This document shows, piece after piece, positions 34,596-36,922 of a stretch of DNA of 64,000 nt (position 1 is the stretch's first letter; every line of letters begins with the position of its first letter). The DNA comes from Pseudomonadota bacterium (GTDB taxonomy: Bacteria > Pseudomonadota > Gammaproteobacteria > Xanthomonadales > Rhodanobacteraceae). The stretch spans positions 1 to 64,000 of the forward strand of contig JAJYSM010000008.1 in assembly GCA_021793575.1 (NCBI GenBank), read 5' to 3'. Below the pieces are notes generated by a model. The model saw only the letters and a program-made list of their open reading frames with translations, had not been told where the DNA came from and ran no database searches. The position numbers and the translations under genes were made by a program.

Positions 34596-34984
34596 TGGGC
34601 ACGCTGGCATTCCTGCTGGTGGCCCCGCCGGTGGCCGCGCCCGACATCCATGTCGGTGGTGAACTCGCGCGGGTGATACTGAGCCTGCTCGGCATCATCG
34701 CGCTGATTCTTGTCGCCGGCTGGCTCAGCCGCCGGCTGCAGCAGCGACCGGGGGCATGCGGCCGCCGCATCCGCTGCATCGAGACGTTTTCAGCGGGCGC
34801 GCGCGACCGCCTGTTGCTGCTCGACGCCGATGGCAAGCGACTGCTGGTCGGCATCGGCCCGGGCGGCATGCGCACGCTGCATGTCTACGAAGGGGTGGTG
34901 AGCGCACCGGCTGAAGCGCCACCGCCCACCGCACCGTTGCCCGGATTTGCCGAACTGCTCGCCCGCTGGAAGCGCACGCCATGA
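34595..34984 (+). CDS. fliO: Flagellar biosynthetic protein FliO
   Basis: Short TM protein, [26 protein letters not shown]; position fliN-fliO-fliP. Confidence 0.9.
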
Positions 34985-35808
34985 GCACGGCCGGCCGGCA
35001 GATACTGCGCAGTTGGCTGCTGCTTGCGCTATGGCTGCTGCCGTTGTGCGCGATTGCGGCAGCGCCGGCAACCGGCGTCACCATGCCGGCGATGCCCGCA
35101 TTGACGATGCCGCAGTCGCTTGTGCCGATCACGGGTATCCCGGTGCTGACCGTGCACAATGCCCCCGGTGGCGTGCAGAACTGGACGCTGTCGCTGCAGG
35201 TGGTGGTGCTGATGACGGCGCTGACCCTGCTGCCGGCGATCCTGCTGATGATGACGGCGTTCACCCGCATCATCATCGTGCTCGGATTTCTGCGGCAGGC
35301 ACTGGGGACACAATCGACGCCGCCGAACCAGGTGCTGCTGGGACTGGCGCTGTTTCTCACCTTGTTTGTGATGTCGCCGGTACTCAACCGTGCCTATGAC
35401 GATGGGGTGAAGCCGTACATGGGCGGTCAGCTCACCGCCGAGCAGGCGTTGCCGGCGGCGGTGGCACCGTTCAAGCGTTTCATGCTCGACCAGACGCGGG
35501 ATGCCGACCTGCAGCTGTTCACCCGGCTGGCGAAGGAAAAACCTTATGCCAGCAAGGCCGATGTGCCGTTCAAGGTGGCGATGCCGGCGTTTCTCACCAG
35601 TGAGCTGAAGACCGCGTTCCAGATGGGCTTCCTGTTGTTCATCCCGTTTCTGATCATCGACCTGGTGGTGGCGAGCGTGTTGATGTCGATGGGCATGGTG
35701 ATGGTCTCGCCGATGATCATCTCGCTACCGTTCAAGATCATGCTGTTTGTGCTGGTGGATGGCTGGACGCTGCTGCTGGGCACGCTGGCGGGGAGCTTCT
35801 ACACGTGA
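34981..35808 (+). CDS. fliP: Flagellar export gate protein FliP
   Basis: [41 protein letters not shown]. Confidence 0.97.
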
Positions 35809-35854
35809 GCATGTTCTCGATGGCCGCTGCGGATTTCTGTCTTGCGGGTGGCAG

Positions 35855-36617
35855 GGCGAAGAGCCTTCGTTCGCTTGCACCTGTAGGAGCGCACCTTGTG
35901 CGCGATGCTCTTGCTGCGTACTGGACGAAGAGCTTCAGGGCGAAGAGCTTTCGCCCTCCTGCGGAGGCCGAGTCACTTTCTCTTTGCGTGGCCAAAGAGA
36001 AAGTAACCCAAGAGAAAGGCCACCCCGCTTACGCGCCTTGCGGGCATCCTGCCCGCAAGGTTCGCGGCCGGGTTACGGGGCTTGTCGACAGGGCATCCTG
36101 CCCTGACGCCAAACTGGTTCGCATCCCTGCGAACCACCCTGCGGGCTTTCCTCCACCCGCCCGCCGCTTCAGATGGGTCCCCGGTAGAGCAGCGGGCCAT
36201 CGTGGCCCGCACTTGGTGATGAAGCTGAAAAACAACAGCAAGAGCGAAGTGTCGCGCTGCCGTGCTCCGGCTCTTCTGAAAAGTGCGGGCCACGATGGCC
36301 CGCTGCTCTACCCGGGGCCCCTGTGCGGCGGTGAGTCGGGGTCGACAGGCCGCGAAGCGGGCATCGACAGGGATGTCGATGCCTTTTCGCACGGGCAGGA
36401 TGCCCGTTCGAAAAGCCCGGCTCACGGACTTGCCGGGCAGGAGCCCGGCAAGCGCCAAGCGGGGTGCTCTTTCTCTTTGGTTACTTTCGCTTTGAGCACG
36501 CAAAGAGAAAGTGACTCGGTCGCCGCAGGCGATCGACCGCTCTTCGCTTTGAATACGACAAGAGCATCGCGCACGGAGTGCGCTTCTGCAGGTGCGGGAG
36601 GGCGAAAGTTCTTCGCC
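35855..36617. repeat. ~760-bp nested quasi-palindromic element with REP-like ends and internal mini-hairpins
   Basis: Outer arms 35855-~35932 / ~36541-36617; mid arms 35970-~36046 / ~36433-36517; exact 30-bp inner arms 36185-36214 / 36281-36310. Confidence 0.9.
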
Positions 36618-36652
36618 ATTCCTTCAGCGAACCGCAACGCAGGTACATGCGC

Positions 36653-36922
36653 ATGACGCCTGAAACGATCATGACGATTGGTCAGCACGCGCTGTATGTG
36701 GCGATGTTGCTGGCCGCGCCGCTGCTGCTGACGGCGCTGGCCGTGGGCCTGCTGATCGGCGTGATCCAGGCGGCCACGCAGATCAATGAGCAGACCCTGA
36801 GCTTCATTCCCAAGCTGATCGCGATGGCGCTGGTCGCGCTGGTGGCCGGGCCGTGGATGCTGCGTGTGCTGGTGCAGTTCACCCATCAGCTGATCGTCGG
36901 GCTGCCGGATGCGATCCGGTGA
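36653..36922 (+). CDS. fliQ: Flagellar export gate protein FliQ
   Basis: MTPETIMTIGQHALYVAMLLAAPLLLTALAVGLLIGVIQAATQINEQTLSFIPKL. Confidence 0.97.
   Translation: MTPETIMTIGQHALYVAMLLAAPLLLTALAVGLLIGVIQAATQINEQTLSFIPKLIAMALVALVAGPWMLRVLVQFTHQLIVGLPDAIR

Follow-up and report, generated by a model that had tools for sequence, protein, structure and literature searches.

Known repeats and GGA-loop RNAs

REP, BIME and REPIN sequences are extragenic, are based on GTAG-tagged REPs and consist of palindromic units of 20-40 bp (PMC3733652, PMC3116915, PMC2817692). One of these reports also describes, in other bacteria, GTAG dimers within long palindromes, as well as GTAG units in degenerate form, linked to unrelated stem-loops (PMC3733652). 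MITEs are short non-coding repeats with inverted ends. A different group is formed by the RNAs bound by CsrA/RsmA, for which the consensus is ANGGA within hairpin loops (PMC6028588). The CsrB repeats read CAGGA(U/A/C)G and the CsrA SELEX consensus is RUACARGGAUGU, with the hairpins obtained in that selection mostly having 4 base pairs or fewer (PMC7652899). In Xanthomonas, the RsmA-binding sRNA RsmU derives from a 3' UTR and contains GGA motifs (PMC7694677).

Here we describe an insert between fliP and fliQ in a genome of the Rhodanobacteraceae. With about even confidence, we consider it a non-coding, dispersed, composite repeat of REP/BIME-like type, that is, a hairpin array made of inverted half-units of ~270 bp with around six hairpins each. 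As with REP/BIME, the element is extragenic, present in many copies, composed of palindromic units in opposite orientations, found between convergent or tandem genes, and GTAG-tagged at its inner arms and outer neighbours. Unlike REP/BIME, it is an ordered array of ~600 bp and ~12 hairpins, it has A(N)GGA(N) loops, its sites are held across species, and the GTAG tag is limited to the h6 inner arm and the outer neighbours, being absent from h1-h5. Because the tag is partial and no RAYT with flanking repeats was found, we file the element as REP-like and not as a member of the REP family. The GTAG dimers and palindromes mentioned above share with it the combination of REP units with longer palindromes in large numbers; their sequences are other ones, and neither 47-nt loop insertions nor GGA loops are described in the excerpts of that report (PMC3733652).

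The fliP-fliQ gap and its inverted arms

The window, meaning the whole analysed stretch of 64,000 nucleotides, contains fliP at 34981..35808 (+ strand; PF00813, E=3.7e-81) and fliQ at 36653..36922 (+ strand; PF01313, E=1.6e-29). A preliminary description placed a quasi-palindrome of ~760 bp between them, at 35855-36617, and allowed that its arms might align no better than chance. The palindrome is present, and the gap region matches its own reverse complement with 71% identity over 763 bp (E=3.7e-95), which puts it well beyond chance. The fold of the + strand has -426 kcal/mol, compared with -260.5 (sd 7.2) for 20 shuffles.

All three nested sets of arms were located. The outermost pair (35850-35933/36539-36622) has 84 nt and 73% complementarity, the following pair (35934-36030/36457-36553) 97 nt and 85%, and the third (36164-36214/36281-36331) 51 nt and 88%. 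The claim that the inner arms are exact over 30 bp around a centre of 66 nt agrees with the measurement. Two points of that description hold in part. The nested sets exist, but they arise from two inverted half-units and their long-range pairs are not maintained. The outer arms do carry REP-like cores, but these are neighbours outside the conserved core of a 59-copy alignment.

The same description had similar sequences give spurious ORFs in related genomes, and no Pfam family matched the ORFs of this element. A protein-coding insert, using the 283-aa ORF at 35805-36656 or antisense ORFs, was rejected: the ORFs are present, but the simple codon model used for gene calling calls no gene inside the copies, and the length changes between copies are not multiples of three. 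This reading is contradicted by these results and is extremely improbable.

Organisation of the element

In the alignment of 59 copies, the core element spans 602 bp, from AAGAGCTTTCG at ~35943 to GCTCTT (consensus CGAAAGCTCTT) at ~36544, and conservation falls beyond these limits. AAGAGCTTTCG and CGAAAGCTCTT are the terminal inverted repeats of the core. Between them lie two half-units of ~270 bp in inverted order. The left one (35943..36214) has its GGA-loop strand on the - strand, reading outward from the centre, and the right one (36282..36544) on the + strand. They are separated by a variable centre (36215..36280), which has the lowest conservation, with a mean identity of 0.71 among the copies at the fliPQ site.

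Each of the twelve hairpins shows covariation. In the left half-unit these are h1 (35956..35966), h2 (35972..36007; CTTTCTCTTTG...CAAAGAGAAAG), h3 (36037..36059) and h4 (36089..36105), the last two with loop ATCCT (AGGAT on the - strand), and h5 (36115..36136), with loop ATCCCT (AGGGAT on the - strand). Next comes the GTAG-tagged, REP-like inner arm (36185..36214, + strand), which contains h6 (36192-36210). The arm search identified its inverted copy at 36281..36310 (- strand), containing h6r (36285-36303). The right half-unit continues on the + strand with h5r (36360..36383; loop AGGGAT), h4r (36391..36407; loop AGGAT) and h3r (36429..36452; loop AGGA), followed by h2r (36480..36515) and h1r (36520..36532), which, like h1 and h2, have no strand assigned.

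A GTAG REP-like sequence adjoins the core from outside (35882..35913, + strand) and has other copies in the same genome. Both this sequence and its inverted partner (36559..36591, - strand), also located by the arm search, are poorly conserved. The element is cleanly separable into conserved and non-conserved parts.

Copies and taxonomic range

The preliminary description expected a repeated element of related genomes, with a sequence unique to this site as the contrary outcome; homologous copies are in fact many. The genome itself has a second near-full copy (C23, 80%) plus several fragments. Matches are found in all 45 genomes of the genus Rhodanobacter, some with ~10 full copies, and at E<=1e-10 in 132 of the 182 genomes of the family, spread over 20 of its 26 genera. 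In a sample of 281 genomes of the class, matches are limited to the genome itself and three others, where the match covers no more than 55-67 bp of the mid-arm module. The plasmid collection gave a single partial match of 97 bp, in an Aeromonas record. Solo half-units also occur elsewhere.

No earlier description of this repeat family was found in the literature searched, and among the papers listed for the exact hairpin letters all were unrelated. The repeat is new in its size, architecture, loop motif and module insertion, and represents a large and apparently undescribed repeat family of one bacterial family.

Some related sequences were observed beyond the family. The ~60-bp mid-arm module (CTTTCTCTTTGGTTACTTT...) is present without the rest of the element in other gammaproteobacterial families (L142, L143, L144). 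Arrays of the hairpin GGGCAGGATGCCC are found in Cyanobacteria, Planctomycetota, Verrucomicrobia and other phyla (L237, L240, L246, L267, L288 and others).

Local hairpins and long-range pairing

The local-hairpin and nested-palindrome structures were both scored on one alignment of 56 copies. The twelve local hairpins are paired in 98.6% of the cells, and 61 of their 98 base pairs have changes on both sides. Two-sided changes occur in 703 cells, where shuffles give 210 (sd 13). Covariation reaches 0.370 against 0.142 when shuffled, a value attained by 0 of 500 shuffles, and sliding the hairpin partners, as a control, abolishes the signal. For the nested long-range pairing there is no excess of covariation in these copies (0.080 vs 0.092, with every shuffle equal or higher). 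Within one copy, the stems of a left hairpin and of its right-hand partner show no agreement beyond expectation.

As only the local hairpins covary and partner stems do not match beyond expectation, the giant palindrome is seen as a consequence of the two inverted half-units, and the hairpins as what is maintained. The same evidence led us to discard the idea that a giant hairpin or cruciform is the unit of function.

Among the stem changes in the alignment, two-sided cases far exceed wobble intermediates, which is expected if one arm serves as the template of the other. Gene conversion or template switching inside the hairpin, selection, or both may remove mismatches in the stems. At the fliPQ site, the linkers are more conserved than the fourfold-degenerate sites of fliP and fliQ (0.91 vs 0.855, in 32 of 36 comparisons), which is a modest sign of constraint.

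Conserved linkers together with covarying stems would also suit a structured non-coding RNA or a nucleoid-protein site that is not related to CsrA. No Rfam family matches the element at the gathering score, however, and the centre is variable, the halves are duplicated and also found solo, and their orientation is random. We consider this reading very unlikely.

Genomic placement and insertion sites

Copies lie between convergent genes in 25 cases, tandem genes in 30 and divergent genes in 2. Under the REP/BIME-like reading, copies would come to rest downstream of stop codons, since these positions tolerate strong stem-loops. At 44 of the 61 loci, forming 11 groups, both flanks are orthologous between species, so the insertion positions are old, and most copies are probably static at present. 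Copies at different sites of the same genome (e.g. G040) nevertheless cluster in the tree and share stem alleles. This partial resemblance to other copies of the same genome is concerted evolution.

These fixed sites bear on a classical MITE, in which a transposase would act on the terminal inverted repeats AAGAGCTTTCG/CGAAAGCTCTT. Such repeats are indeed present, and the element is a compact non-coding unit with several copies per genome. On the other hand, the sites are common to species and not scattered, no autonomous partner was seen, and solo halves lack one end. Unlike in MITEs, there is also an internal hairpin chain under pairing constraint. We regard a MITE as unlikely.

The fliP-fliQ junction

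Full or partial copies occupy the fliP-fliQ junction in 17 of the 26 genus genomes that have both genes on one contig; outside the genus, four genomes show the same. The view that the element separates two otherwise coupled genes is borne out by ten other genomes, in which fliP and fliQ retain an overlap of 4 bp (ATGA or GTGA); others hold different repeats in the gap. One such repeat (CCCTCTCCCC...GGGGAGAGGG) lies in the fliP-fliQ gaps of seven loci from other genera (L149, L152, L154, L157, L160, L162, L167). Since other genera carry a different repeat there, the junction collects repeats repeatedly, and it is a permissive or recurrent site and not a unique one.

Both edges of the insert keep ATGA, as a target-site duplication would, although gene function demands ATGA there anyway. 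The element would exchange translational coupling for a separate initiation of fliQ, and we infer an effect on fliQ expression. Positions of the fliP-fliQ type would also illustrate how a conserved translational coupling can be broken and subsequently restored by way of a separate start. Within transcripts, the elements may act as orientation-independent barriers that attenuate read-through and protect 3' ends. A scan for promoter-like sites and terminators found nothing above chance.

GGA loops and CsrA/RsmA

In h3-h5 and their partner hairpins, GGA (TCC on the opposite strand) is retained in the loop, with the preceding and the following base free. The variants seen are AGGAT, AGGAA, AGGAG and AGGAC, and ANGGAT with G, T, A or C as N. 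The C-G pair closing these loops is nearly invariant. Each half-unit has three to four hairpins with A(N)GGA loops, a loop type absent from the 44 other comparable hairpins of the 64-kb window. Such strict A(N)GGA(N) loops, together with linkers conserved somewhat beyond the fourfold sites, speak against the REP/BIME-like reading, as they indicate that something reads the loops. The A(N)GGA(N) loops of most core hairpins look like candidate docking sites for CsrA/RsmA, and the h5r sequence ACAGGGATGT fits the SELEX core ACARGGAUGU (consensus from PMC7652899).

The main rival to the REP/BIME-like reading is accordingly a dispersed CsrA/RsmA decoy, which is compatible with a REP-like origin. Here, the outward strands of the half-units would be transcribed as RNA arrays, and their A(N)GGA hairpins would titrate RsmA or mark the host mRNA. 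We hold this to be possible, though doubtful. In its favour, A and GGA are fixed in the loops while the positions free in the consensus vary freely, CsrA is encoded in 45 of the 45 genus genomes, the RsmZ model RF00166 gave nothing over the cut-off in the genome itself and 20 relatives, and RsmU offers a Xanthomonas precedent for a 3' UTR sRNA with GGA motifs (PMC7694677). Stems here are long, however, compared with the mostly 4 or fewer pairs of the SELEX hairpins (PMC7652899), and the scan of the element revealed no promoter-like site.

If the outward strand works as RNA, that GGA strand is where G-U mismatches are expected. The alignment does show such a preference, at 26 vs 6 positions and in both halves (p=0.0005, a value that is optimistic because the copies are related), and at 15 vs 2 positions when h2 is left out. 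When solo halves and other genera were scanned as a small independent set, the bias did not recur (4:4 and 7:7). It is also not significant in a motif scan of all loci (22:11 at best), and loci from other phyla show it reversed. Solo halves near tandem genes have GGA on the sense strand in 10 cases and on the antisense strand in 9, with some of these loci coming from other phyla, so that no strand preference relative to genes is seen. With the wobble bias unreplicated and the solo halves at 10:9, the evidence for use of an RNA strand is mixed.

Arrays of AGGAT-loop hairpins also occur in other phyla, where 12 of 20 genomes have no CsrA match. This too speaks against CsrA/RsmA arrays, although the loops differ, as those of other phyla also vary at G (e.g. 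AAGAT) and have no ANGGAT forms.

Like the CsrB/RsmZ sRNAs and RsmU, the element has multiple hairpins with GGA loops; unlike them, it is dispersed, forms an inverted double array and has longer stems. A decoy would resemble CsrB in its mode, but the element cannot be called a member, as there is no family homology. A wider version, in which tens of vertically kept copies across the family would be CsrA/RsmA-binding hairpin arrays in their outward strands, serving as scattered decoys or landing pads, evolving in REP-like fashion and growing by GGA-loop modules entering loops, seems to us rather unlikely.

Should the GGA loops bind RsmA, the decoy sites of a regulator could spread by way of a repeat. 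Flagellar motility is under CsrA/RsmA control elsewhere, and one copy of the element sits in the flagellar export-gate operon, which would be relevant if the decoy reading is true.

Module insertion and transposases

A 47-nt module (CGGGCAACCGCTCCTGCGTTGCCTC...CATCCATGCCGTCG) was found in the loops of seven loci (L041, L053, L074, L100, L101, L102, L214). Its fold comprises two hairpins whose loops are of TCC type, giving GGA on the opposite strand, and the module enters between T and CC of the loop in one constant orientation. When the flanks are rejoined without the module, a hairpin with a perfect stem results in seven cases, with at least 5 different stems. The element thereby documents a hairpin module entering hairpin loops, and this precise insertion into differing hairpins points to a loop-targeted spread at the DNA level. 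Under the REP/BIME-like reading, the repeats would have arisen and grown as DNA, through insertion of hairpin modules into other hairpins or recombination between them. Two further loci (L207, L273) look like recombinants of two insertions of the 47-nt module.

In contrast to REPIN/RAYT systems, arrays of the hairpins border none of 29 Y1 transposase loci retrieved from the genus, nor either of the two in the genome itself. In nine genus genomes Y1 transposases gave no match, though elements are present. A RAYT as present-day partner was rejected on these grounds.

Elsewhere, genomes of Akkermansiaceae and Opitutaceae (G481 and G482; L289, L296) have many partial matches to the Y1 transposase domain, at least 42 in each and mostly within ORFs of 350-430 aa. 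Five GGGCAGGATGCCC hairpins surround a Y1 transposase gene in a genome of Chloroflexi (L402, 697-1917), an arrangement that would fit a transposase-repeat pair.
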